Shown here: positions 42,417 through 57,155 of the stretch, piece by piece | Position numbering within the stretch: the stretch's first letter is position 1 | Layout: every line of letters begins with the position of its first letter | Assembly (NCBI RefSeq): GCF_900113065.1 | Contig: NZ_FOOA01000001.1 | Span: forward strand, 248,001 to 312,000 | Direction: 5' to 3' | Source: Aureimonas phyllosphaerae | GTDB lineage: Bacteria; Pseudomonadota; Alphaproteobacteria; Rhizobiales; Rhizobiaceae | Length of the DNA stretch: 64,000 bases | Notes under the pieces: model-generated | The model's database searches: none | Seen by the model: the letters and a program-made list of their open reading frames with translations, nothing else | Told to the model about the DNA's origin: nothing | Translations under genes and position numbers: made by a program

Positions 42417-43399
42417 CAGGCGTCTCCGCGCGTGGCGTCAGCGAGGACCGCGGGAAGCGTCCGGCGCACCAGGTCGATCTTGAAGTCGTTGTCGCCGTAG
42501 CCCTTGGCATCCTTGAGGAGGAGGTCGGCCGCCCGCGCGAAGACCACCTCGCCGGGCGCCTCGCCGATCAGCACCTCTTCCACGCCCTTCGAGCGCCACG
42601 GCACGGTGCCGATGCCGCCGAAGGCGAGCCGGACGTCGGCCATGCGCCCCGCCTCCATCCGCACGACGGCGGCGACCGAGAACAGCGCAAAGGCGTAGGA
42701 CGCCCGGTCGCGCACCTTGCGATAGAGATGGCGCCCCGCCAAAGGTTTCGGCAGCCGGATGCCGGTGATGAGCTCGCCGGGCTCGAGCGAGGTCTCGATC
42801 TCCGGCGTCTTGCCGGGCATGCGATGCAGTTCGGCGATCGGGATCGTGCGCTCGGACCCGTTCGACTTGATCGTCAGCACCTCGGCGTCGAGGAGGCGCA
42901 TCGCCACCGCCATGTCGGACGGGTGCGTCGCAATGCAATGATCGGAAGTGCCAAGAATGGCGAGGATGCGGTTGAAGCCGTCGCGGCCATCGCAGCCGGA
43001 GCCCGGCTCGCGCTTGTTGCAGCGCGCGCTGGTCTCGTAGAAATACCCGCAGCGGGTGCGCTGGAGGAGATTGCCGCCCGTCGTCGCCTTGTTGCGGAGC
43101 TGGCCGGACGCGCCCGACAGGAGCGAACGGGACAGGACCTCGTAGTCTCGGCGGATGCGCTCGTCGGCGGCGAGTTCGCTGTTCGAGACGAGGGCTCCGA
43201 TGCGCACGCCCTCGCCGTCCGCCTCGATGCTCTTCAGCGGCAGGCGCGTGATGTCGACGAGGCGGCTTGGGGTCTCGACCTGCAGCTTCATGAGGTCGAG
43301 AAGGTTGGTGCCGCCTGCGATGAACTTCGTCGCGGCATCGGCGGCGACGGCCGCGGCTTCCTGCGTGCTTGAGGCGCGCTGGTAATCGAAGGTCTTCAT
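42416..43399 (-). CDS. paoB: Aldehyde oxidoreductase FAD subunit, PaoB type
   Basis: The 327-residue protein has FAD-binding motifs KFIAGGTNLLDLMK and GQLRNKATTGGNLLQRTRC, followed by a cysteine-rich insert (RCGYFYETSARCNKREPGSG, then C) that holds the extra 4Fe-4S cluster of PaoB-type proteins. It passes electrons from the Fe-S clusters to an acceptor. Start overlaps the paoA stop by four bases (ATGA). Confidence 0.9.
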   Translation of the reverse strand: MKTFDYQRASSTQEAAAVAADAATKFIAGGTNLLDLMKLQVETPSRLVDITRLPLKSIEADGEGVRIGALVSNSELAADERIRRDYEVLSRSLLSGASGQLRNKATTGGNLLQRTRCGYFYETSARCNKREPGSGCDGRDGFNRILAILGTSDHCIATHPSDMAVAMRLLDAEVLTIKSNGSERTIPIAELHRMPGKTPEIETSLEPGELITGIRLPKPLAGRHLYRKVRDRASYAFALFSVAAVVRMEAGRMADVRLAFGGIGTVPWRSKGVEEVLIGEAPGEVVFARAADLLLKDAKGYGDNDFKIDLVRRTLPAVLADATRGDA

Positions 43400-43899
43400 G
43401 CCGCGCCCTTTCCGTGGGCGTCGCGGATTGCGTCGACGATGTTGGGATAGGCCGAGCAGCGGCAGAGGTTGCCGCTCATGCGCTCGGAAATCTCGGCGTC
43501 GGTCAATTCCACCTTGCCGTCGAGCGTCTCGGACGCATGGCTCGGCCAGTTGTCCTTCGCCTCGCCCAGCATGCCCACCGCCGAGACGATCTGACCCGGC
43601 GTGCAGTAGCCGCATTGGTAGCCGTCGTGGTGGAGGAAGCTCTCCTGCATCGGATGCAGGTGACCGGGCGCGCCAAGGCCCTCGATCGTGGTGATCTCGT
43701 CATCCTCGTGCATCACGGCGAGCGACAGGCAGGCGTTCACGCGGCGCCCGTTGATCAGTACCGTGCAAGCGCCGCATTGGCCGTGGTCGCAGCCTTTCTT
43801 GGAGCCCGTCAGCGCGAGGTGATCGCGAAGAGCGTCGAGCAGCGACGTGCGGACATCCACGTCAAGATCGTGCTCCGTTCCGTTGACCTTCAATCGCAT
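43396..43899 (-). CDS. paoA: Aldehyde oxidoreductase 2Fe-2S subunit, PaoA type, no Tat signal
   Basis: The 167-residue protein has both 2Fe-2S clusters: Cys37, 42, 45, 57 (GCDHGQCGACTV...NAC) and Cys96, 99, 146, 148 (QCGYCTPG...NLCRC). It starts MRLKVNGTEHDLDVDVRTSL, directly with the ferredoxin fold. The E. coli protein has a long twin-arginine leader here; none is seen and no in-frame Arg-Arg motif precedes the ATG. The whole enzyme is therefore predicted to be cytoplasmic. First gene of paoABC. Confidence 0.9.
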   Translation of the reverse strand: MRLKVNGTEHDLDVDVRTSLLDALRDHLALTGSKKGCDHGQCGACTVLINGRRVNACLSLAVMHEDDEITTIEGLGAPGHLHPMQESFLHHDGYQCGYCTPGQIVSAVGMLGEAKDNWPSHASETLDGKVELTDAEISERMSGNLCRCSAYPNIVDAIRDAHGKGAA

Positions 43900-43992
43900 G
43901 GGTGCCCCGCTCTCTGTAACGTTTCCAAGTTCGGAACGCAGGTGGAGCGTGTTGGATGCGAGGAAAGGAAGGGGACTGTGCTTTTTCGCGCG

Positions 43993-45129
43993 TCAGGCCG
44001 TCGCGGGCTGACCGATCGGGCGCGCGATTCGACCACCGGTCAGCGGTTCGGGTGCGCCGGTCGTCGAGGGGAAGCTGATCGGAAGGCCGCGCAGGACGCG
44101 GACAGCGAGAAAGGCGAAACACTCCGCCTCGATCGCATCGCCCCGGAGGCCCAGCGCGTCGGCATCCACCGTCTCGGCACCGGTGCGCCTGGCAATCTCG
44201 CGCATCAGGACCGGATTGCGCCGCCCGCCGCCGCCCACCACGAGCCGCGTCGGGCGCTTCGGCAGGAGGTCCAGCGCCTTGCCGATCGCCCCGGCCGTGA
44301 AGGCGGTCAGGAGCGCCGCGCCGTCCTCCAGCGACAGGCCGTCGGCCATGCGCGCGGCGAAGTCGTTGCGGTCGAGGGATTTCGGATAGGGCTCCGCAAG
44401 GTACGGATGGTCGAGAAGCTTTGCCAACCGCTCCTCGTCGACATGGCCTGCGGCGGCGATCAGGCCGTCGCGGTCCATGTCCTGCCGGGCGCGGGCCTGC
44501 ACCCAGTCGTTGAGCGGCGCGTTGGCGGGACCCGTGTCGAAGGCGTGCATCTCGCCGTCGGCCGAGATCCAGGTGATGTTGGCGACGCCCCCGAGGTTGA
44601 GGAAGGCCGTCTCCTCGCCCGCGCCGATCCGCGCGAGAAGGGCCTTGTGGTAGATCGGCGCCAGCGGAGCGCCCTGCCCGCCGAAGGCCACGTCGCGGCT
44701 GCGGAAATCGAACACGACGGGAATGCCGAGCCGACGCGCCATCTCGTCGCCGTCGCCGAGTTGCCTCGTGTCGCCGGGGCGCTCGGGCGTCGCCGCCCGA
44801 TGCAGCACCGTCTGCCCGTGAAAGCCGACGACACCGCAATCGACGGACGGAAGTCCCTCGTCCTCGAGGAAGGCAGCCACCGCATCCGACTGCGCCGCCG
44901 TCAGCGCCTCTTCCGCCGTATCGAAGATCGCGGGCTCCGGGCCCTCGAAGTTCCAGCGGGCGGCGGCCGCCAGCGTTTCCTTCAGAAGAGGACGGATGTC
45001 CTTGGGGTAAGGGGCCAGCAACGTCGGCCCGAACTCGTGGATGGTCTCGCCGTCCGTGCAGAGCATGGCGATGTCGACATTGCCGTCGAGCACCGTCCCG
45101 GTCATCAACCCGATCGCCCACATCGACAT
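43993..45129 (-). CDS. anmK: Anhydro-N-acetylmuramic acid kinase AnmK
   Basis: The 378-residue protein has the ATP-binding start [20 protein letters not shown] (GTSMDG in E. coli), [30 protein letters not shown] and [11 protein letters not shown]. It opens and phosphorylates anhydro-MurNAc during wall recycling. ATG at 45129 has GGAGAC eight bases upstream. It is 93 bases upstream of paoA on the same strand; the linkage seems accidental. Confidence 0.93.
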
Positions 45130-45236
45130 CGCATTCGTCTCCAAAGTCTGGCCGTCCGCGACTCGGACGCCGCCAAGCAAGGCTGTGGCATGCCTTGCCC
45201 GGCGCCAAGCTGACGGGCCATCCCCGATCGCGCCGG

Positions 45237-46088
45237 TCAGGTCACGATGGCGCGATCCGTCACCCGCCGCCACGCGGCTCCGTCGCTGAAGGCGAGCACC
45301 GCTCCACCAGCCGCATCCGACACCAGGATGATCTGTCCGGCGCCGGCTTCCGCTGAGGGAAGCGCCGCCTTCAGATAGGTTGCGACGCGCACCGCGCCAC
45401 CCACGTCGAGCGCGCAGACCGGCTCGGAATCGTGCGCCACCGACAGAAACCCGTCGGCTGCGCGCGCCGTCAGGATGGGTGTGAAGCTCGCGCCGTCGGT
45501 GGACAGGCGGATCGAGAACCGCTCATCGCCGAGAAGGCCGATCTCGGCGCGTCCCGAAAAGCCGGTCTGGAACAGGACGGAGGCCACACGGCCGGCCCCC
45601 TGCCGGTTGATGACCTTCCGGGCGTCGCCCGACCCGGGCGTGCGGGCGTCGAAGGTGAGAAGCTCGGCGTCGGCTGCGACGGTCAGGCGGTTCGCGTCCG
45701 TTGGCAAAGCGTTGATGCCGAGGCGGTCGATCTCGCTCGCTGCGAACGGGCCGGCGCCCCACGCCTCCCCGTCGAACAGCACGAGTGCGCGCCGGTCGGC
45801 AACATAGGCGATCTGCCCGGGCACCGGTTGCATCTCGACGAACGCGCCGTTCTCGACCATCGCCAGCGCGCCGGGTTGCATCACGCCCCAGCGCGCGCCC
45901 GTCGCGCCGGAAGGCAGGATGAAGAGATCGCCTTCCCCTGCGTCCTCCGGTTCGACGGCGAGACTGTCGCTGACGACCGCCGTCTGGACCAGCACGTCGA
46001 GAAGCCGGAAGGCGTCGTTGAGGGTCAGATGCCGCTGCGCCTGCTGAGGCATCAGCAGCGGAAGGGAAAGACGGGGAGAGGTGGACAT
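45237..46088 (-). CDS. DUF2793 protein, candidate GTA/phage tail fibre
   Basis: The 283-residue protein begins with the DUF2793 core: [57 protein letters not shown]. The rest is beta-rich with a C-terminal [18 protein letters not shown] and WRRVTD. DUF2793 proteins are phage-related; the R. capsulatus GTA tail fibre gene rcc00171 encodes one and is unlinked to the main GTA cluster. Here it lies about 27 kb from g1. Whether it is a GTA part or a leftover phage gene cannot be told from sequence. Confidence 0.85.
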
Positions 46089-46207
46089 GGGAGGGCTCCT
46101 TGTTGGGAGCCAGCATCCTTGAGGTCGATCAGGCGCGATGGGATAAGTCGGGCGCTGATAATGTTCCCGACCCTCCCCGTCTTGGCAGTCTCAACCTCGG
46201 TCTGTAA

Positions 46208-46813
46208 TCATTCCTTGCCGAGAAACAGCGTGACCAGGGTTGCCGCATCAGGCACGCCAGACGTTGGTAGCTTTCGTGCGGTCTGAAACGCCGCCAGAGC
46301 CTTTGCAGTCGCCGGGCCGAAGGCGCCATCCGCTGCTCCCGTCAAGAAACCATCCTGTTTGAGTTGCGCCTGAACCGCCTTCAGCGTCTCGGTGCGGATG
46401 GTGACTCGCTTGTCTCCTTCACCGATTTCGCTGAGCTGCGAACTCATGGTCTGGATGCCTGATTTCATCCGGTCCACGAGCCCGGCGGTCGAACTTTCGA
46501 CCAGACTCGTCGGATTGTCCCGGCAGACGCTCACGACGAGATGGGCTAGCGTCTGATTGTCCGAGATCGGCATGACCTCGAATGCCCCGGGCGTGGTGCG
46601 GTTCGCATGGCTGATATAGCCTGCGACCCAACTTCCGAGAACGGCGACGACGGCCGGTCGTTGCGCCTCATCATCATAGGCTTTCGCGAGCGCTTCGCAC
46701 GACTGCGCGCCGAGCCCGCGCACGGAGAATTCGTTGGTCGAGGTGGCGGCCTCTGCCGTATTGACGGCTAGGAGCGTCAGGCAGGAATAGAGAAACGAGC
46801 CGAAGGGGCGCAT
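46208..46813 (-). CDS. Secreted protein with C-terminal peptidoglycan-binding domain
   Basis: The 201-residue protein has a signal peptide (MRPFGSFLYSCLTLLAVNTAE to about residue 23), an unrecognised N-terminal domain with two Cys (GAQSCEALAKAYDDE and SVCRDNP) and a PG_binding_1 domain at about 138-195 (LKAVQAQLKQDGFLTGAADG). It would act in the periplasm. It lies 110 bases downstream of the large repeat protein gene on the same strand, so a functional link with that locus is possible. ATG at 46813 chosen; GTG/TTG codons just upstream are alternatives. Confidence 0.7.
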   Translation of the reverse strand: MRPFGSFLYSCLTLLAVNTAEAATSTNEFSVRGLGAQSCEALAKAYDDEAQRPAVVAVLGSWVAGYISHANRTTPGAFEVMPISDNQTLAHLVVSVCRDNPTSLVESSTAGLVDRMKSGIQTMSSQLSEIGEGDKRVTIRTETLKAVQAQLKQDGFLTGAADGAFGPATAKALAAFQTARKLPTSGVPDAATLVTLFLGKE

Positions 46814-46923
46814 GAGGTTCACCAATCGGGTTTTGGTTGAAAACGGCGTCGGGAGGAGACCGCGAAGCCTCCTCCCAGGGTTGTAGAGAGGAAACCGCCG
46901 TTCACGCGGCGGCTTCCGGCCGA

Positions 46924-49900
46924 TCAGCGCGCGGAGCCGTAGAAGGACCCGACATTGCCGCCGATCGAGTTGATCGCGCTGTTACCCGTTGCCGAAGCCG
47001 AGATCCGGTTGCCCGTAACCGCAGCCGACAGGCCCGAGCCGAACTGCGAGTTGATCCCGATCTGCGCGCCCGTGACCGCCGACGTAACGTTGCCGCCCGC
47101 CAGATTGGTCTGCACGTTGTTGATCGCCGCGCCGCCGTAGGAACGACCGCTGCCGGAGTTGAGCGCGATGCGGTTGACCGCCTCGTTCGCAACGCCCACC
47201 GCGCCGATCGAATTGCCGCCGACCCGCTGCGAGCCGAGCGAACCCGCGCCGCCGTTCAGGCTCGTGATCCCCACCGTGGCGTTGGTCACCGTGGCAAGAT
47301 GCGCGCCGCTGTTGCCCTGCACGCTCGTGATCGCCAGCGGAGAGCTGGTGGTCCCGGCGCTCGACGCCGAGCTGATGAGGCCCGTGCCCGTCGAGTTGAA
47401 GGACGCGACGTTCAGGGCGTTGTTGGCGCTGTTGCCGCCGGACAAAGCGGTCACGGCGTTGCCGCCGACCTCGCCGCTGTTGTTCGCGGCATTGCCGTAG
47501 AGCGCGGCCACTGCGGCTCCGGTGACCGAAGAGCTCGAACCGCCGGTCGCGTTCTGTGAGTTCAGGATCGAAGCGTTGGCCAGACCCAGCGTTCCCTGCG
47601 CGGCCAGCGAGACGCTGTTCGACGCCGAGTTCGAGATGGCGGTCGAGGTCAGATCGTTGCCCGTGATCGCGAAGTTCGAATTCGCGCCGGTCCCTTCCGA
47701 CAACGCCACCGTCGCATTGGTCAGCGACGACGTCACCGAACCGGTCGCGCTCTGCGAGTTCACGGCGGCAAAGCTGGCGGTGGTCAGCGGGAGACCCGGC
47801 ACCACCGAATCCAGCCCCGCCACTGCCGCACCATTGCCCGCAAGGCCGAACGCATCGATCTGCACGGCATTGGCGGCCGTGTTGCCGATCGCCAGCGACG
47901 TCAGCGCGTTGTTGCTGAGATCGACCGAGGACAGAGACGCCGAGCCGAGAGGCGCCGTGACGCTGACATTCGAGACGGTGCTCGTCACAGCTCCGGTTTT
48001 CGTCTGGTTGCTGAGAACGGCTGCCGTTCCGTTGACCCGTTGCGCCGGCGCATCGTTCGGACCCGAGACCGCGACGACGTTGGTCGCGGTGTTGCCCCGG
48101 GCCGCGCCGCCGATCTGGTTGCCGGACAGGCTGATGTCGCTGCCCGTGATGGCCGCCGGCGCGGTGATGTACGCGCTGACGAAGTTCACGTTGGATGTGA
48201 CCGTATTACCGGACGACTGCACCGCAACCGCCGTGAGGTCGGCGTTCGAACCGGCCAGAACCAGTCCGAGTGCATTCTGGACGCCCGCCTGTACCGGTTG
48301 AACGATCCCTTGCGTTCCCAAACTGAACGTATCGAGGAAGACGCGATTGCTGGCCGCATTGCCCGTCGCCGAGGCGGTGAGCAGGTTTCCGTCCACCGCG
48401 AGCGATCCGCCGGAGACGGCGCCGCCGGCCACGATATGAGCGCTACTGTTGGCGTAGTTCGCGGCCACCGCGCCCGCGTTGGCCTGTTCGGCGCGCAGCG
48501 CCATGGTTCCGTCGAAGCCGAAGGCCTGCCCTTCCACCGCGTTCCCGGCATCGTTCACGCCGCCGAAGACGAGCGAGTCCGTCCGGTTTCCGGTGGCGGC
48601 CACGTCATAGACGTTGCCCTGAACGGCCAAGTCGGAGTTGGTGACGGCACCGAAAGCGTCGATGAAGGCCGAGCTATCGTCCTGATTGCCGTTCGCCGTG
48701 ATCGCGCCGAAGTTGACCTGTTCGGACAGGACGCCGAGGCCGGCCGAGACGGCTTGGTTGGCGTTGAACCCCTGGCCGACATTGCTGCCGGAGCCGAAGC
48801 GGAACGTGTCGACCGCCAGGCTGTTGGTCGCCGCGTTTCCGGTCGCCAGCGAAGCGACGCGATTGTCGGAGTTGGCAATCGAGCTGCCGGTGACGGCACC
48901 GTTGAGGGACGTTTCGATGTCGGTGTCGTCGAAGGACGAGGTCGCGCTGCCGGCGTTCGCCTGCGACGACAGAATGCCGTAGCTCGAGGTCAGGAACGAG
49001 GATCCGACCGGACCAAGGGCTGCGACGCCGCGTCCGTTCGCCTCGATATCGAACGCGTTCGAAACCGCGATCGAATTGGCCGCCGTGTTGCCTCCTGCCG
49101 AGGCGATCAGCTGGTTTCCGGTGGCGGTCACGGCGCCGTTGGTGACGCTGCCGACATCGATCGTTACGTCGGGGTAGGTCGCGTCCGCGAAGGTGTTGGC
49201 GAGATTCCGCTGATTGTTGAGGACGGCGGCGTTCGCGTCGACCGTGCGACCTTCGATAACGATCGTGTTGGCGGCAGCCTCGTTTCCGCTCGCAAAGGCG
49301 CCGAGCGTATTGTCGCTCGAGGTGAGCGAACCGGTGACGGCGCCCCCGAAGGTTTGAACGTTGGTCTGGTTGAGGGTTGCGGTCACGGGGGCGGCGGAGA
49401 CGGCGTTCTGGTTGTTCACGACCGCCAGATCAGCGCCCGTGGCAACGGACACCACTCCGTTCGTCGAGACCGCCGACGGCACGAGCGTCGCGGACCGCAC
49501 GTCGAGCCCGTCGATGCGGATGCCGTTGAGTTCGGACCGGTTGACCCCGGCCTCCGCCGCGATGCGATTGCTCGAATTCGTCACTGCGCCGGCAACGTTG
49601 TTGCCAGCCCGGTCGAGCACCACGTCGGAGTCTGCAACGGTGGCCCGGACAGCTGCGGTCCCCGAGGCGGACTGGTCGTTGACGACGGCCGCGTTGCCGT
49701 TCAGCACCGTGGCTCCGGTCTGCGTCAGCGGAATGGTGCCGGTGACCGCCGCGACCGTCACGGTCGGATTGAAGCGGATGAAGTTCTGCGTCGAATTGAC
49801 CTGCGAGGCCGCCTCGATCGAGTTGTCGGTAACGGCGGTCGACGACGTGGTGCCGGCCAGCGAGGTGGGACGAACGGCGATCCGGCTGTTGCTGACCGTG

Positions 49901-50619
49901 GATGTCATCGGGCTGGCGACGACGGCAGCCTGGCCGTTGGCGACCACGGCGTTGGCCGAAGCCAGGAGCGAGCCGCCGGTGGCGTTGATCGTTCCCGCCA
50001 CGGCGGGTCCGACCGGGGCGATGCCCGCGATGGCATTTGCCGACACGTTGCCGTTGGCAAAGGCGCCGATCTCGTTGTTGGTCACGGCGTTCGACGCAAC
50101 CGGGGGAAGGCTTCCGCCCCCGAGCCCGGCACCGACCTGCGCCGATGCGACGCTGGCCGAGATCGCGCCGGCCTGCAGCGACTGGCTGGAGCCGACCGCG
50201 AGACCGTCCGCCACGGCATTGAAGGCGTTGTTGGCGAGCGACGACTGGATCGTCGAGACGCCAGAGTTGCCGGTGGCCGTCGCGACCGTGCTGTTGCTGT
50301 CGACGAGCAGGTTGCCGCCCGGCTGCGTGCTGCCGATCCCGGTGCCGACCGGCGTCTCGATGCCGATCGTGGTCCCGGTCAGAAGCGGATTGCTTCCCGT
50401 GACCGGCGTTCCGGGCGCGTAGGACGCGCTGAGCGCGGCGCCGACGAGCGTCTGGGCGTTGACGATCAGCTGCGTCCCCGAGCCGACCTGCCCGACCGTG
50501 GCGAGCGCCGACGGCAAGCTGATGGTGGCGGCGTGGGCCAGGCCGACGGTCGCTCCGATCGCCACCACGCTGGACGCGCCGAGCAGCTTCAGCCGACGAT
50601 GATTGTTGTTGGTCGTCAT
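46924..50619 (-). CDS. Giant secreted repeat protein, HfaD/curli-like
   Basis: The 1231-residue protein has a signal peptide (SSVVAIGATVGLAHA, cut near residue 31) and then about 14 copies of a motif N-x-[ILV]-x(4)-[AT]-x-GN-x-[AT]-x-N-x-[ILV] (for example GNLLTASATGNAASNRVFLD, DNRVASLATGNAATNSLAVD), alternating with about 12 copies of [AG]-[VI]-L-[NS]-x-Q-x(2)-x-G (AVLSNQTKTG, SILNSQNATG). Spacing is about 85 residues. The mature chain has one Lys, no Cys and no Trp. Such Asn/Gln/Gly/Ser-rich repeats suggest an amyloid or beta-solenoid surface fibre. It lies downstream of an HfaB-type exporter and an HfaA-like protein; Caulobacter HfaD is much shorter as I recall. Name by context only. Confidence 0.72.
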   Translation of the reverse strand: MTTNNNHRRLKLLGASSVVAIGATVGLAHAATISLPSALATVGQVGSGTQLIVNAQTLVGAALSASYAPGTPVTGSNPLLTGTTIGIETPVGTGIGSTQPGGNLLVDSNSTVATATGNSGVSTIQSSLANNAFNAVADGLAVGSSQSLQAGAISASVASAQVGAGLGGGSLPPVASNAVTNNEIGAFANGNVSANAIAGIAPVGPAVAGTINATGGSLLASANAVVANGQAAVVASPMTSTVSNSRIAVRPTSLAGTTSSTAVTDNSIEAASQVNSTQNFIRFNPTVTVAAVTGTIPLTQTGATVLNGNAAVVNDQSASGTAAVRATVADSDVVLDRAGNNVAGAVTNSSNRIAAEAGVNRSELNGIRIDGLDVRSATLVPSAVSTNGVVSVATGADLAVVNNQNAVSAAPVTATLNQTNVQTFGGAVTGSLTSSDNTLGAFASGNEAAANTIVIEGRTVDANAAVLNNQRNLANTFADATYPDVTIDVGSVTNGAVTATGNQLIASAGGNTAANSIAVSNAFDIEANGRGVAALGPVGSSFLTSSYGILSSQANAGSATSSFDDTDIETSLNGAVTGSSIANSDNRVASLATGNAATNSLAVDTFRFGSGSNVGQGFNANQAVSAGLGVLSEQVNFGAITANGNQDDSSAFIDAFGAVTNSDLAVQGNVYDVAATGNRTDSLVFGGVNDAGNAVEGQAFGFDGTMALRAEQANAGAVAANYANSSAHIVAGGAVSGGSLAVDGNLLTASATGNAASNRVFLDTFSLGTQGIVQPVQAGVQNALGLVLAGSNADLTAVAVQSSGNTVTSNVNFVSAYITAPAAITGSDISLSGNQIGGAARGNTATNVVAVSGPNDAPAQRVNGTAAVLSNQTKTGAVTSTVSNVSVTAPLGSASLSSVDLSNNALTSLAIGNTAANAVQIDAFGLAGNGAAVAGLDSVVPGLPLTTASFAAVNSQSATGSVTSSLTNATVALSEGTGANSNFAITGNDLTSTAISNSASNSVSLAAQGTLGLANASILNSQNATGGSSSSVTGAAVAALYGNAANNSGEVGGNAVTALSGGNSANNALNVASFNSTGTGLISSASSAGTTSSPLAITSVQGNSGAHLATVTNATVGITSLNGGAGSLGSQRVGGNSIGAVGVANEAVNRIALNSGSGRSYGGAAINNVQTNLAGGNVTSAVTGAQIGINSQFGSGLSAAVTGNRISASATGNSAINSIGGNVGSFYGSAR

Positions 50620-50722
50620 CTCAGTCTCCGTCTCCTCCGCTCGCTTTCCAGCGATGCGTTCGGCTCCTGTTGCAGTGGGGTTTCCTGTCGGCGCCCACCT
50701 CGCCGCATGCGAAGCTTCGTGT

Positions 50723-51868
50723 TCAGTACTGACCGAAGACGCCGGGCGTCGTCGGCCGCACCTGCGCCGGGGCGCCGGGTGTTTCGAGCAGGCTCTCACG
50801 GGCGAGAGCGGCCTGTGTGCTGGGACCTGAAAGGGCCGCTGCAGGCCCCGTCGCGGCAGCGGTCGGAGACGCCAGCGTCACGGCGGGCCGCGCCGCCTGC
50901 GGCGGCGGCAGCGTGCCGGTCGTCCGCGTCACGCCGGACGAAACGGCGGCTCGGCGGACCGGAGGGGGAAGCCTCGGCGTCGGCGGCGTCTTGGAGACAA
51001 TCCGCAGATCGTCTTTCGGGCCGGTCTCGAGGCAGGCATAGGGCGAAACGTTCGTGGTCCGGGCGAGGAGTTCGATCGTCGCCGCCTCGAGCGTGGTTCG
51101 CACGCCGAACTGAAGCGGCTCCTGGTTCTTAGCCCCGAGATTGATGTCAAAGAGGTCGCTGCCGAAGAAGCGGAAGATACCGAACCCGACCTCGTAACCC
51201 GTAATCTGCTTGGACATCGACACTGTGTGGCTCACCACAAGCGTTTCCGTGGAGACGATCCGCAGATCGACGGCGATGTTGAGCGTGTAGACCCGCGCCT
51301 TCGGCCCGACCAGGTTGACGTTGGCTTCCACCCCGCCGGAACTGATGTTGTAGTTCAGCTCGGTGATGCCGCCGATGATGAAGTAGTCGGAGGCCCGGAT
51401 CGAGCCGCCGAAATAGGGTTTGTAGGGTACGAGAGCTCCATTCGGCCCGAGGGGATACTGCTGTCCATCGCCGAGCTGGCGACGATCGAGATAGATCAAC
51501 TCGGCTTCGGCGACGCGCGTGTCGAACCGCTCGTGGAGCGTCACTGCGTCATTCATCTTGCCGATGGCCGAATACACCATCAACGCGCCGCCCTGCGTGA
51601 TCGCGGCGCCCTCGTTCTGGTTGTACTTGCCGGTGTAATCCTTGATGTCTCCAACGGCGACACCAAGCTTTCGTCGGCTCGACGAGCGGATTTCATCGCC
51701 CAGACACGCCAGCGCTTCATTGTATGGCGTGACGTTGGATCGTACGGCTGGGCCAACGACGACTGGCGCCTCCCCCGGCGCGATCTGCTCGTGCTGTACG
51801 CTCGCGCAGTTCGACAACGTCAGTGCGGCAGAGACGAGAGCCGCAAACCTGAACTTACCCGAAATCAT
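50723..51868 (-). CDS. hfaB: HfaB / CsgG-family outer-membrane export lipoprotein
   Basis: The 381-residue protein has a lipoprotein-type signal with Cys21 in TLSNCASVQ (an atypical lipobox), then a CsgG fold region: KLGVAVGDIKDYTGKYNQNE, GGALMVYSAIGKMNDAVTLH, YFIIGGITELNYNISSGGVE, NIAVDLRIVSTETLVVSHTV. A Pro/Ala-rich tail of about 90 residues follows. Curli exporter CsgG forms a nonameric outer-membrane pore; HfaB is its homologue that exports holdfast anchor proteins in Caulobacter. Context here is matching: repeat proteins on both sides. GAGGGAAACG precedes the ATG at 51868. Confidence 0.85.
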   Translation of the reverse strand: MISGKFRFAALVSAALTLSNCASVQHEQIAPGEAPVVVGPAVRSNVTPYNEALACLGDEIRSSSRRKLGVAVGDIKDYTGKYNQNEGAAITQGGALMVYSAIGKMNDAVTLHERFDTRVAEAELIYLDRRQLGDGQQYPLGPNGALVPYKPYFGGSIRASDYFIIGGITELNYNISSGGVEANVNLVGPKARVYTLNIAVDLRIVSTETLVVSHTVSMSKQITGYEVGFGIFRFFGSDLFDINLGAKNQEPLQFGVRTTLEAATIELLARTTNVSPYACLETGPKDDLRIVSKTPPTPRLPPPVRRAAVSSGVTRTTGTLPPPQAARPAVTLASPTAAATGPAAALSGPSTQAALARESLLETPGAPAQVRPTTPGVFGQY

Positions 51869-51919
51869 TCGTTTCCCTCGTGGTGCCGGCACAGCGCGCG
51901 AGACCAATTCCCTGCCGTT

Positions 51920-52540
51920 TCAGTTCAGTGCGCCGCCGGCGCCACCGAAGGAGCAGGCTTCGCTCCCCGCAACGCTCGCCTGCTGATTGCCACCATTGGC
52001 CTGCTGATTGTTGAGGGCCTGCCATGTGCGCCCGCCGTTCGCCGCGATCACCCCGCCGCCGGCCCCGACCGCCGAGTTGGCAACGCCCGAGGTCTGACTT
52101 CCCGAATTCTGCTGGCCATTATTGAGGGTGCTTCCCGGCACGCCGCCCGTGTTCGAAGCCGCGTTGCCGGTAGCGCCCGAGGAGATCCCAGCCTCGTTTC
52201 GGGTATCGGGAGACGAGGATCGGGCGGACTGACCGTTATCGGCGGCATTGCCCGTTGCACTCGACGAAACCTGGCAATTGAACTGGCGGTCGATATTCGT
52301 CGTGCTGTAGACGTTCGTGTTCGGATTGAAGCTGTCGAAGTATCCGCCCCGTTTTCTTTCAATCAGATCGAGGTTCACCGAGAGGTTCGCTCGGTCAGCG
52401 CTCGTCCGAAACTGCCAGGGACCGCTCTCACCGTAGCCTTTCGCCATCGAGGGGGTCGCTATGATGACAAAAAGGTGAGCTACCAGAATTATCTGCCGAC
52501 CCCTTGGAACATCCAACATTTTTGTAAGTTCTACGGACAT
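51920..52540 (-). CDS. Small secreted repeat protein, HfaA-like
   Basis: The 206-residue protein has a signal sequence ending TPSMA-KGYG (about residue 34), a mature region with FNPNTNVYSTTNIDRQFNCQ, two copies of [SG]ATGNAA[DS]N and two of LNN-x-Q-x-N-x-G, ending EACSFGGAGGALN. The motifs are the same as in the giant repeat protein, and two Cys may form a disulfide. Position before hfaB and export signal fit HfaA. GGAG lies seven bases before the ATG at 52540, and a perfect 12-base palindrome lies just upstream. Confidence 0.7.
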   Translation of the reverse strand: MSVELTKMLDVPRGRQIILVAHLFVIIATPSMAKGYGESGPWQFRTSADRANLSVNLDLIERKRGGYFDSFNPNTNVYSTTNIDRQFNCQVSSSATGNAADNGQSARSSSPDTRNEAGISSGATGNAASNTGGVPGSTLNNGQQNSGSQTSGVANSAVGAGGGVIAANGGRTWQALNNQQANGGNQQASVAGSEACSFGGAGGALN

Positions 52541-53259
52541 CGGGATGCTCCATAATCGGTACCGATCAGATAGATGAGCGCCAGACATCGATCCCGCGCC
52601 ATTGCAGGCGGGCGAAAGAAAGCTCTTGTTCTGACTGCTCGTGCCGTACATCCGAATTCGAAAACCATTCGGGGCGTACGGGCCTGCTTCTACGAACGAT
52701 GATGCTCGTCGGTCTTCCGCGCGTTCCGGGGAACGTTAGCGACGTCAGCCGAGCTCAGCGTCCACGCCATAGGCCACAACCTATCGACGAATTGCAACTT
52801 ATAAGTGCAATCAGGCCGCACTAATCCTCGGTGATCATCGCGGGTGTTGCCGTTGGGGAACACGAACGGCTCTGGTCTCGCGGCCCGCGAGATCCGAGAG
52901 CCGGCAAAGAGGTCGGCAATCGCCGCTTCACAAGTGATGCTGCCCAGACGAGATCGGCCCGAAATGGGGCCGATTGGATTGAGACAGGACCGTTTGTTTG
53001 GAGGTCTGCCGTGCCTCGACATCCAACGAATGATACCGTCACGAGGGCATGCAGTTTGACTGCGTTTGACTGCTCATTCCCGGGGTGTCTGCAGCCTATC
53101 GACCGATGTCTGAGGCCGCCCTCGACGACTGCGACCCTCTCCGGTGCCCCCTGGCTTCAGCGGTCATCCGTTTTATTCGGCTCGAAGTTACGGACCACGA
53201 CCCGGCCCGCAGTGTGACGCTTCAGATCGGCGAGGGCGTTTGTTCAGGGCGCGAACGGC
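52541..53259. promoter_or_regulatory. 719-base region upstream of the hfa-like genes
   Basis: No convincing gene is seen; short frames on both strands lack ribosome-binding sites and family resemblance. GC is lower than in flanking genes. Notable are a perfect palindrome ATCGGTACCGAT at 52555-52566, 15 bases before the hfaA-like start, and a near-perfect 19-base palindrome TTGCAACTTATAAGTGCAA at 52792-52810. Both are candidates for regulator binding sites. The segment 52830-53200 could hide a small RNA or decayed gene. Confidence 0.45.
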
Positions 53260-54246
53260 CTAAAGGACGTGAGTATCGACATCAGCCTGAGACTTGCCGC
53301 GCGGCGGGATCTGGATGTCGTCCGGCGCGCCGACCATGCCGGCGGCGCCCTGCGCGGTCATGTCCGGCTTCAGGCGCTGCTCGCGCAGGAAGATGAAGAC
53401 GCCGGACGCGGTGATCACCGCCGCACCGATCAGCATCGAGATGCGCGGTGTCTCGTCGAAGATCACGACGCCGAAGAGCAGCGCCCAGACGATCAGCGAG
53501 TACTGGTAGGGAACCACGGTCGAGGCAGGCGCCAGCGTCAGCGAGCGGTTCACGGCCGAATGCGCGGCCATCGCCACGATGCCGAGCAGGAACAGGAACC
53601 CGAGGTCGAAGGCGGACGGCGTGACCCAGTGCATCGGCGCGAGGATCGCTCCGAACACGAGCGCCATCACCGTCTGCCAGGTGATCAGCGTGGTCTCGCC
53701 GGCTCCTGCAAGGATCCGCGTCGAGATCATCAGGAGCGCGTAGCAGAAGCTGCCCGCGACCGCGATCAGCGCCGGCCAGCCGGCGCTCGCAAGGTCCGGC
53801 CCCAGCGCGATCAGCACGCCTCCGAAGCCGACCAACACCGCGCTCCAGCGCACCCAGCCGACCCGCTCCTTCAGGATCAGCGCGGAGAGAGCGGTCACGT
53901 AGATCGGCCCGGCGAGGTAGAAGGTCATGACGTTGGCGAGCGGCAGGTAGCTCAGCGCCCAGTAGAAGAAGCCCGTTTCCATCGCCGATCCGGCAGCGCG
54001 CAGGAGATGCAGGCCCGGCCGCGCCGGACGCACGACGCTGCGGACATCGACGCGGCGGATGAACGGGATCAGGATCACGAGCGCCGAGACGCTGCGCAGC
54101 ATCAGCACCTGCCCCACCGAATAGGTGCCGACCAGCCACTTGCCCATCGCATCGTTCACCGAGAACATGAAGCAGCCGAGCAGCATGAAGCCGACGCCCC
54201 AAAGGGCTGCCGTGCGGGAGTGTGAGGCGCTGGCAGGCGACGACAT
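53260..54246 (-). CDS. DMT-superfamily transporter (EamA)
   Basis: The 328-residue protein has ten predicted helices in two EamA halves, starting FMLLGCFMFSVNDAMGKWLV and with FYLAGPIYVTALSALILKER and PYQYSLIVWALLFGVVIFDE. It is an inner-membrane carrier of the drug/metabolite family; the substrate cannot be told. The C-terminal tail of about 35 residues is polar and cytoplasmic. Confidence 0.88.
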   Translation of the reverse strand: MSSPASASHSRTAALWGVGFMLLGCFMFSVNDAMGKWLVGTYSVGQVLMLRSVSALVILIPFIRRVDVRSVVRPARPGLHLLRAAGSAMETGFFYWALSYLPLANVMTFYLAGPIYVTALSALILKERVGWVRWSAVLVGFGGVLIALGPDLASAGWPALIAVAGSFCYALLMISTRILAGAGETTLITWQTVMALVFGAILAPMHWVTPSAFDLGFLFLLGIVAMAAHSAVNRSLTLAPASTVVPYQYSLIVWALLFGVVIFDETPRISMLIGAAVITASGVFIFLREQRLKPDMTAQGAAGMVGAPDDIQIPPRGKSQADVDTHVL

Positions 54247-54330
54247 GGAGACTCGCAGTTGATGAAGGCCGGCAGGTGGACAAGGCTGGGTTACAGCCCC
54301 TCGTGCGCAGCGTCCATCGCGAAGGCCCCG

Positions 54331-54906
54331 TCAGCCGGACACGTTTCGTAGCGGACGACTGAGATAGCGCGAGCCGGCCAAGCCGAAGCGCCACGGCTCG
54401 TCGATCGCCTTGGTGATGCCGATCCTCGGCCCGACACCAACGGGCCCCGGCGCCGCGGCCTGGCGGAAGAGAAAGGGCGGCTCGTCGATCGCCAGGCCAT
54501 CATGGCCGGCGTCGATGCCGAGCGCCTGGGTCAGCCGGCCGGGGCCGGCGCACAGAAGCCTCGGCTCATCGAGGCCGCGCCTTCGACCCATGGCATCCAG
54601 CCCGGCCAGCGGCTCGAGCGCCCTCAGCAGCACGGCGCTGCCGGGCTCCGTGCCATCGCAGACGATGTTGAGGCACCAGTGCAGCCCGTAGGAACGGTAG
54701 ACATAGGCCCGGCCGATCGGACCGAACATGGCGCGGTTGCGCAAGGTCTCGCCGCGGAACGAATGCGATGCGGCATCGCCGGCGCGGTAGGCTTCAGTCT
54801 CGACGATGCGCCCGCCCACCCCGTCGAGATAGAGTTCGCAGCCGATCAGCGCGGCCGCCAGCGAAACGGCATCCTGTGCGAAGAATTCGTCGGATCGTGG
54901 CGGCAT
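54331..54906 (-). CDS. mpg: 3-methyladenine DNA glycosylase, AAG/Mpg family
   Basis: The 191-residue protein has [20 protein letters not shown] with the catalytic Glu in [37 protein letters not shown] and [15 protein letters not shown]. It removes alkylated purines from DNA. Size matches the bacterial Aag family. A longer reading to 54996 covers the tRNA promoter and is rejected. Confidence 0.93.
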
Positions 54907-54948
54907 GGTCCCCTTGTGGCGAAAGCTCCGGGGCGCATCCGTTCCGTC

Positions 54949-54978
54949 TTGACAGCGCCGCCCGAGCGTCCGTATATC
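54949..54978 (+). promoter_or_regulatory. Strong promoter of tRNA-Met
   Basis: TTGACA (54949-54954) and TATATC (54973-54978) are 18 bases apart on the plus strand, about 65 bases before the tRNA. It also lies just upstream of the divergent mpg gene. Confidence 0.7.
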
Positions 54979-55044
54979 GCCCTCAACTCGCCGCACGACA
55001 ACGGCGGGCGCTTCGGATGTGGTCGAGACCGATCCTTCCGCCTT

Positions 55045-55202: not shown

Positions 55203-57155
55203 ATGACATTGGACGATATCGGGCGGTCTATGCTCAAGAACACGATGCGCTGGCTGACCCTTTCGTCGGTCGGTTCCGAGATGGCCGCAAAGCAGTTCGA
55301 GGAACTGCGCTCGCAGGTGCCGCTCCTCTATGCGCTTCTCAGCGTCAATGCGCTGGCGCTCGGCTACACGCACTACGGCAAGGCGCCGTTCTGGATGTCG
55401 GTCCTCGCGCCCGGCTCGCTCGCCCTCTTCGGCGCGCTGCGAGGGGTTGCATGGCTGCGCTACGACGTGAAGGCCTTCGAACACGCCGACATCATCCGCC
55501 TCCTTCGCCGAACCGCCGTGCTCGGCTGCCTCCTGTCGGTCGCCTACATCCTCTGGTCGCTGCGCCTGACGCAATTCGGCGGGGCGGATGAGCGGGCGCA
55601 TGTCGCCATGTTCGTCGGCATCACCGTGATCGGATGCATCTTCTGCCTCAGCCACCTGCCGCAGGGGGCCGTTCTCGTCGCGACCTTCACGACCATCCCC
55701 TACCTCCTGTTCTACCTCCTGGCTTCGAGGAGCACGGTCTACATCGCGATCGCGCTGAACATCCTCCTTGTGACGCTCGTCGTCATGCGGGTGCTGATGA
55801 ACGGGTTCTCGGCCTTCTCCAAGCTCGTTCAATCGCAGAGCGAGACGGCCCGGCTGAACCGCGAGGTGACGATCCTCGCGCACACCGACCTCCTCACGGG
55901 CCTTCCGAACCGGCGGCTGTTCTTCTCGGATCTGCGGCAGCACATGACCGGTCGCGATCCGTCGAGCCCTGCCCTCTCGCTCGGCGTGATCGACCTCGAC
56001 CGGTTCAAGGCCGCCAACGACACCTACGGCCATCTCGTCGGCGACCAGATCCTGGCACAGGTCGGCGTGAGGCTGGCAGAGGAATTCGAAGACAAGGGAA
56101 TCGTGGCGCGGCTCGGGGGCGACGAGTTCGCGTTCATCGTCGAGGCCGATGGCGAGACGGCGATCGGGATGATGTCCGGCGTCTGCGAGCGCCTCGCCGA
56201 ACCCTACGTGACCGATGGCGTCACCATCTCCATCGGCGCTTCCTGCGGCATCGCCACAGTGGTGGGCGTCAAGGTCGACGCTTCGGCGCTCTACGAACGG
56301 GCGGACTACGCCCTCTACACGTCCAAGAACTCGCGGCGTGGCCTGCCGACCCTTTATTCCGAGGCGCACGAGGCCGCCGTCCGATCGGACCGGGCGATCG
56401 AGGCCGCCCTGCAGGCCGCCGATCTTGATCGTGAGCTGACGATCCATCTTCAGCCGGTGGTGAACTCACAGAGCCACGCGCTTTCCGCCGTCGAGGTCCT
56501 GGCGCGCTGGACGTCGCCGACGCTCGGCACGATCAGCCCCGCCGTCTTCGTGCCGGTCGCGGAGCGCACGGGCATCGTCCACCGCCTCACCGTCAAACTG
56601 TTCGACAAGGCGCTCGCGGCGGCGGCGGACCTGCCGGATACGGTCGCGGTCTGTTTCAATCTCTCGGCCCACGACCTGACATCGCCAGGCACGATCCTGT
56701 CGATCATCTCCGCCCTGCGGAACTCGGGGGTCGCACCCTCGCGCATCGTCTTCGAACTGACGGAAACGGCGATGCTGCGGGACTTCGAGGCGGCCCGCGA
56801 GGCGCTCGGCGCACTCAGCGCGCTGGGTGCCCAGGTGGCGATCGACGATTTCGGCACCGGCCACGCCAGCCTCAGCTATCTCCGCGAACTGCCGATCCGC
56901 CGTGTGAAGATCGACCGCAGCTTCGTCAGCGGCGACAAGGCCCTCGCCCGGCGCGATCTTCTCGGCGCCGTGATCGCCATGTGCCGCTCGCTGGACCTGC
57001 AATGCGTGGCCGAGGGCGTGGAGACCGAAGAGCAGATGGCGTTCCTGCGCGAGGCCGGATGCGACGCGCTGCAGGGCTATCTGATCGCGCGGCCGATGCC
57101 CGCCGCCGACCTCTGCACCTGGATGGAAACGCCTCGCGCCTTTGCCGCCGCCTGA
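55203..57155 (+). CDS. Membrane GGDEF-EAL cyclic-di-GMP protein
   Basis: The 650-residue protein has an N-terminal membrane part of about six helices (40-200), a GGDEF domain (about 222-385, intact RLGGDEF) and an EAL domain (about 400-640, signature EVL, then [40 protein letters not shown]). The RxxD inhibitory site before GGDEF is absent. Both catalytic sites look usable, so it could make or break cyclic di-GMP and thus affect attachment. It begins 80 bases after the tRNA. Confidence 0.88.

Follow-up and report, generated by a model that had tools for sequence, protein, structure and literature searches.

A patchily spread HfaB/CsgG-type cassette in Aureimonas phyllosphaerae that may export a giant repeat protein

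A stretch of 64,000 nucleotides from the genome of Aureimonas phyllosphaerae (RefSeq assembly GCF_900113065.1, contig NZ_FOOA01000001.1, positions 248,001 to 312,000; hereafter the window, whose numbering is used for all coordinates) contains a cassette in which an HfaB/CsgG-family lipoprotein is encoded between a small HfaA-like exported protein and a giant exported repeat protein. By comparison of sequences, the cassette is carried by a separate, patchily spread group of HfaB proteins. The preferred reading, with a probability of roughly 0.7, is that a CsgG-type pore exports the giant protein unfolded and that the giant folds outside the cell into a surface filament or adhesin. The three core genes are as follows.

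51920–52540, minus strand: HfaA-like exported protein, 206 residues; signal peptide (by eye), WQF loop followed by a helix, two invariant Cys residues, Asn/Gln/Ser-rich C-terminal part
50723–51868, minus strand: HfaB/CsgG-family lipoprotein, 381 residues; PF03783, lipobox Cys21, Pro/Ala-rich C-terminal tail
46924–50619, minus strand: giant exported repeat protein, 1231 residues; signal peptide (by eye), 14 copies of a repeat of about 60 residues

The gaps between the genes are 51 bp (HfaA-like/HfaB) and 103 bp (HfaB/giant), and the ATG of the giant is preceded by a Shine-Dalgarno-like stretch (all by eye). An earlier sequence-only reading of this DNA had proposed the three frames, the hfaA-hfaB-large-protein order and the exported low-complexity proteins on either side of HfaB; all of this holds, coordinates and lengths included. 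The same order is kept in Aureimonas sp. ME7 (L031), the closest relative with the locus among the matches listed, with amino-acid identities of 79% for the HfaA-like protein, 86% for HfaB and 49% for the giant. In this one species pair, the ratio of nonsynonymous to synonymous substitution rates (dN/dS; NG86, with dS of 0.73–1.63 and thus partly saturated) is 0.108 for HfaB, 0.100 for the HfaA-like protein, 0.110 for a neighboring peptidoglycan-binding protein described below and 0.534 for the giant, while the flanking genes anmK and EamA give 0.157 and 0.271. Because the gene order is shared at these identities and ratios, the open reading frames are not a product of chance. With its ratio of 0.534, the giant thus changes fast in protein sequence, as an exposed protein might.

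The assignment of the central protein to the CsgG family, also made in the sequence-only reading, is borne out by profile search: it scores 56.8 bits against Pfam CsgG (PF03783, cut-off 20.8), and a PDB sequence search matches CsgG (E = 4.6e-9). Against the HfaB equivalog NF037935 it reaches 214.7 bits, under the curated cut-off of 300. Cys21 follows a hydrophobic stretch within a lipobox of the form L-S-N-C, in which the residue before the cysteine is unusual; as read from the sequences, it is nearly invariant in 48 HfaB proteins of the window's group, and all 48 match PF03783. Judged by these profiles, the protein belongs to the CsgG family and is not an HfaB equivalog; it is a predicted outer-membrane lipoprotein. 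It is the sole CsgG match in the host genome (4.71 Mb, 60 contigs). An OmpA-like domain is located C-terminal to the CsgG part in 42 of the 48 proteins according to an iterated hidden Markov model (HMM; 23 of 48 by Pfam alone), with no match of that model in the HfaB of the window (P0002), of ME7 or of L163, L185, L186 and L187. Within the class, HfaB matches were found in 42 of 385 sampled genomes; 19 of the 385 pass the 300-bit cut-off, the window's genome not among them.

A tree of HfaB proteins (74 rows, covering 36 of the 80 named loci introduced below) contains four curli-type CsgGs, a Caulobacterales-type group (support 99/99, including L192), a 'short' group (100/99) and a second Aureimonas group (100/100). 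The proteins of the window's giant-associated group form one branch with modest support (87/53), and the program warned that the long branches of two other groups meet. The HfaB proteins of the window and ME7 cluster with those of Mesorhizobium zhangyense and Pseudotabrizicola alkalilacus (92/92).

In named genomes, two peptide patterns found 88 loci encoding a relative; the best 80 of these are the named loci of the counts below, and they include many near-copies from Variovorax and do not amount to a census. The cassette occurs in Alpha-, Beta- and Gammaproteobacteria and is not peculiar to this genome: it was found in Comamonadaceae (Variovorax, Comamonas, Xenophilus, Limnohabitans, Polaromonas, and Ramlibacter), Alcaligenaceae, Sphingomonadales, Acidocella, Falsiroseomonas, Halomonas, Arenicella, and a few Hyphomicrobiales. 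An HfaA-like gene lies directly upstream of hfaB in 77 of the 80 loci (each with E ≤ 3.4e-9, by an HMM built from six N-termini). A giant, defined as a single frame of at least 900 residues chosen by a short 'GN' motif, is present in 60 of the 67 loci with at least 5 kb of downstream sequence, the other 13 being left out of the count; these frames have 1002–2807 residues, more than 55% of which are A, S, T, G, N or Q. The lengths are stop-to-stop and slightly exceed those of the genes, and the longest frame (L180, 2807 residues) runs off its contig. The seven misses are L116 (repeat-rich, split over frames), L182, L183, L184, L188 (a frame of 1735 residues just under the composition limit), L191 (a partial HfaB match), and L192 (of the Caulobacterales-type HfaB group). 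In L098–L100, from three genomes of one further family, giants of 1727–1732 residues are preceded by a gene of 293–405 residues between hfaB and the giant; L100 and L188 are located on the same contig.

On a wider scale the HfaA-like protein is rare, being encoded in only three of 398 genomes drawn from the phylum, the window's own included. In a plasmid search with HfaB, nine of 72,556 records matched at E = 1e-20, all of them over less than 80% of the query; the one record close to the group comes from Variovorax paradoxus (58.9% across 70% of HfaB) and bears the annotation 'hypothetical protein'. Among the literature matches listed, which are open-access and leave subscription journals mostly outside, no title or abstract beginning points to the cassette, nor is it described in the available passages of PMC6707917, PMC7304575, PMC12822426, PMC12844561, PMC8446060, and PMC7616799.

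The giant contains neither Cys nor Trp, and its repeats start 65–93 residues apart. A repeat HMM built from the giants of the window and ME7 only matches 19 of 19 further giants (E ≤ 1.1e-5). As controls, 29 proteins were each shuffled ten times and reversed once, and no match had an E value below 23. After three rounds of growth the model comprised 1077 copies; its consensus ends in ...TISASATGNSATNSLSLSA, and it finds 14 copies in the window's giant and 11–29 in each of the other 62; these 63 giants (from the window, ME7, and 61 named loci, near-copies included) also served as its training set. Cys is absent beyond residue 150 in 58 of the 63, as expected for unfolded export.

For the last 400 residues (832–1231), the portion that was modelled (with an alignment of 45 giant C-termini, hand-picked without near-copies), an all-beta structure is predicted with a mean predicted local distance difference test score (pLDDT) of 89.3 and a predicted template-modelling score of 0.87. 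The best structural alignments (VIA-align) are parallel beta-helices, led by a SufBCD chain (Z = 10.2 over 165 of the 400 residues) and followed by Pontibacter CsgA (Z = 8.6, root-mean-square deviation 8.3 Å) and an antifreeze beta-helix (Z = 7.2). A Foldseek search of a viral structure library with the model returned nothing at E = 0.001 or better, and a PDB sequence search with the giant gave one chance-level match only. This portion is predicted to be a beta-solenoid, with no closer family named; the fold would suit curli- or Fap-like folding and is also that of adhesins that are not amyloid.

In the HfaA-like family (56 aligned sequences, hand-picked, with near-copies left out), W12, F14, C59, and C166 are invariant in the numbering of the aligned piece. 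Structure prediction, which the sequence-only reading had proposed as a check, was confident for the modelled end of the giant; for the HfaA-like protein it carried some confidence in the N-terminus only, where a helix (residues 17–34) follows a loop (block-mean pLDDT of 67–81 over residues 11–40), while residues 45–176 fall below 50 and the whole protein averages 43.8. According to PMC7304575, the N-terminal 27 residues of CsgF line the CsgG lumen as a loop-helix-loop. Homology between the HfaA-like N-terminus and CsgF was considered and rejected as unproven. At its other end, the window's protein (P0001) matches the giant repeat at E = 0.052.

In the preferred reading, the locus would be a dedicated CsgG-type (type VIII-like) secretion cassette serving one giant substrate, with a function most likely of the same class as curli or Hfa secretion. 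By analogy with its family, HfaB would oligomerise into an outer-membrane pore of lipoprotein subunits. The giant would emerge from the Sec pathway, thread unfolded through this pore and fold outside into a long beta-solenoid, a filament or adhesin that remains with the cell. The HfaA-like protein probably takes the same route, its WQF-loop-helix N-terminus being placed at the pore mouth, somewhat like CsgF in CsgG, and its repeat-like C-terminal part possibly connecting the pore to the solenoid. In most of the relatives examined, the pore is probably tied to peptidoglycan through the OmpA-like domain of HfaB; in Aureimonas, a separate protein with a PG_binding_1 domain may partly replace the absent domain. 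The cassette probably serves attachment or contact between cells, the giant being the putative exposed part that changes fast. Somewhat short of even odds, and thus offered tentatively, is the fuller proposal that the cassette represents an undescribed, horizontally spread branch of CsgG-type secretion: an OmpA-like domain would usually bolt the pore to the cell wall, a single exported chain of 1000 to more than 2000 residues would fold outside into a one-molecule solenoid filament, and the HfaA-like protein would start it as a CsgF-like plug.

Several points weigh against export of the giant as set out above. The known CsgG substrates are small, and we know of no precedent for the passage of at least 1200 residues through CsgG. 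The mechanism is a proposal from sequence and predicted structure, and the predicted fold covers only the last third of the giant; beyond the top few, the alignment Z values are of a size that the tool rates as common, and Foldseek found no PDB match to the model at E = 0.001 or better. In L182–L184 and L101, which belong to the group, no giant lies within reach, and the HfaB proteins of the window and ME7 lack the OmpA-like domain found in most relatives. The HfaA-like protein has no sequence relationship to CsgF (hhalign 0.07%), so that the argument for a plug comes from architecture and gene order only. The likeness of HfaA-like C-termini to the giant repeat is weak, with 14 of 83 matching at E ≤ 10 and two of 83 below 0.01, against 0 of 830 shuffles.

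The foremost alternative is a true anchor for holdfast or unipolar polysaccharide, in which HfaB, the HfaA-like protein and the giant, as an expanded HfaD, would hold a polar polysaccharide on the outer membrane in the manner of Caulobacter HfaABD (PMC6707917). The sequence-only reading had likened the locus to the Caulobacter anchor with an enlarged HfaD, and the gene order and the relationship of HfaB do point that way, as do Gln/Asn and 'GN' repeat-like stretches in Caulobacterales-type HfaD-like proteins (by eye). The third protein is indeed well beyond HfaD in length: HfaD-like proteins have 221–485 residues in five Caulobacterales-type loci and 230–584 in three others. The repeat model of the giant, however, matches none of these eight even at E = 100, and the idea of a repeat-expanded HfaD, which came from inspection by eye, was not borne out by the HMMs. 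Against HfaA and HfaD profiles of five sequences each, no significant match was obtained: the C-terminus of the giant reached an hhalign probability of 4.6% with HfaD, and the HfaA-like protein 17.9% with HfaA (pairwise E = 0.0014). Direct homology of either pair was rejected as unproven. HfaB itself is under the equivalog cut-off and stands apart from the Caulobacterales-type group in the tree, though the support for its own branch is modest, as given above.

Polysaccharide genes bear on the same alternative. A Pfam scan of the ten neighbors at 40.2–59.5 kb found no csgE, csgF or polysaccharide gene, in line with what the sequence-only reading had noticed. Four Poly_export (Wza-type) matches occur elsewhere in the genome. 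One shares the contig of the cassette at a distance of about 260 kb; the unlinked locus there (L200, G000:C43:25000-43000) encodes a 186-residue Wza-like protein and a WcaJ-type transferase and is possibly a unipolar polysaccharide locus. The existence of this locus is compatible with a polysaccharide anchor, which is on balance nonetheless unlikely.

A little less probable still is a curli-like system, in which many giants, joined by their ends or their sides, would polymerise into true amyloid fibres with the HfaA-like protein as nucleator. It would draw on the CsgG-type pore, on the weak structural likeness of the giant to Pontibacter CsgA, on the repeat-like motif in the HfaA-like C-terminus and on the Asn/Gln/Gly/Ser-rich repeats predicted to form a beta-solenoid, a fold also reported for CsgA and FapC (PMC12822426). 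Caulobacter HfaA, moreover, is described in PMC6707917 as forming amyloid-like multimers that resist sodium dodecyl sulfate and heat and require HfaD. Nevertheless, no Pfam curlin repeat was found in the HfaA-like protein or the giant at E = 1, and the genome has no CsgF match (PF10614, E = 0.001; CsgE was not part of the genome-wide search); on these two grounds identity with curli was rejected. In addition, non-amyloid beta-helix proteins align equally well, and one solenoid of 1231 residues may need no polymerisation. A disused cassette, acquired horizontally and now drifting in Aureimonas with its OmpA-like domain lost and its giant diverging, is very improbable: its presence in only two of 21 Aureimonas genomes, the HfaB without OmpA-like domain and the dN/dS of 0.53 in the giant would fit, but neither species has lost any of the four open frames and the other three genes have ratios of about 0.1, under those of flanking anmK and EamA.

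Two further features follow the giant, and the second is a gene that the sequence-only reading had missed.

46826–46930, minus strand: two tandem hairpins, terminator-like, at and 3' of the stop codon of the giant; fold z-score −3.34
46208–46813, minus strand: exported 'RGLG..SC' protein with a C-terminal PG_binding_1 domain (PF01471, 54.2 bits); probable accessory part

None of 200 shuffles was equally stable as the hairpins, which a simple terminator scan did not list; because they separate the PG_binding_1 gene from the giant, this gene is perhaps transcribed apart. A promoter scan of the locus found only two weak promoter-like sites, both on the opposite strand. Relatives of the N-terminal part of the PG_binding_1 protein occur in 14 of the 80 named loci; the 'RGLG' relative sits between HfaB and the giant in L169 and after the giant in L172 and L188. 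Since it also occurs where HfaB has its own OmpA-like domain, the protein is not simply that domain's substitute.

In Aureimonas, the cassette occupies an exchangeable slot between DUF2793/anmK and EamA (43396–54996 in the window; also L031, L033–L036, L038, L039, L045, and L225–L227). By Pfam, its neighbors are xanthine-dehydrogenase-type genes, anmK and a DUF2793 gene at one end and EamA with a DNA glycosylase at the other. Of 21 Aureimonas genomes, two have this cassette in the slot, seven have a different HfaB cassette in opposite orientation and three have nothing there; two cases of the other cassette, beyond the seven, were seen from one side only, and in the remaining seven genomes EamA was found and the other flank was not within the 14 kb fetched. 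Gain of the cassette by horizontal transfer is the simplest reading. A GGDEF-EAL protein is encoded near the cassette (55293–57155) and also flanks the slot in L033 and L045; it is probably not part of the cassette, because these two loci hold the other one.

HfaB-type proteins are more widespread in the genus than this cassette. The profile matched in 14 of the 21 genomes, two of which (G013 and G019) match via curli-type loci, so that the statement in the sequence-only reading that Hyphomicrobiales attach without Hfa proteins fails for Aureimonas. A second HfaB cassette, found in Aureimonas and one relative (L033–L036, L038–L040, L044, and L045), has an HfaB 29–32% identical to the window's and, in most cases, a small 'GYY' protein and an Ala/Gly/Thr-rich exported protein of 273–306 residues. 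The N-terminus of the HfaA-like protein is related to that of the small protein of this second Aureimonas group (hhalign 90%, E = 1.4e-6). Members of a third HfaB group (L102–L110 and L032) mostly have genes for an 'AFDEVNWTWD'-type exported protein and for short 'PWS'-type proteins next to them, and response-regulator-like genes are often nearby; in one genome (G055) HfaB was matched five times. Aureimonas G013, G019, and G011:C16 and G024 of the same family contain curli-type loci in which csgG is preceded by a CsgF-like gene (CsgF by sequence reading).

Compared with known systems, the cassette shares with Caulobacter HfaA-HfaB-HfaD the gene order, in which the gene of an HfaB/CsgG lipoprotein is flanked by those of two exported proteins, one small and one repeat-like. 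It differs in that its HfaB belongs to a separate group under the equivalog cut-off and carries an OmpA-like domain in 42 of 48 relatives, in the giant, whose length is about 2.5–5.6 times that of the five HfaD-like frames (221–485 residues), and in the lack of linked polysaccharide genes here. Curlin repeats have about 20 residues (PMC12822426). With curli (CsgG-CsgF-CsgB-CsgA, type VIII), the cassette has in common a CsgG-family pore, an adjacent small protein with a loop-helix N-terminus and an exported repeat protein predicted to be a beta-solenoid, whereas no CsgF or curlin repeat was found and the putative substrate is one giant chain with repeats of about 60 residues. Beta-helix surface adhesins of the autotransporter and two-partner types are likewise large, Cys-poor exported proteins with predicted beta-helical structure; here, in contrast, the associated outer-membrane protein is of the CsgG type, and Pfam found no autotransporter or TpsB domain in the four cassette proteins. 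Work on CsgG-type pores has dealt with the export of small amyloid subunits, and proteins of the CsgG/HfaB family have been engineered as sequencing nanopores (PMC12844561). A natural branch that moves giants would allow the reach of CsgG-type export, and the pulling by folding outside, to be tested, and would provide a defined adhesin candidate for Variovorax, Comamonas, Novosphingobium, and others.

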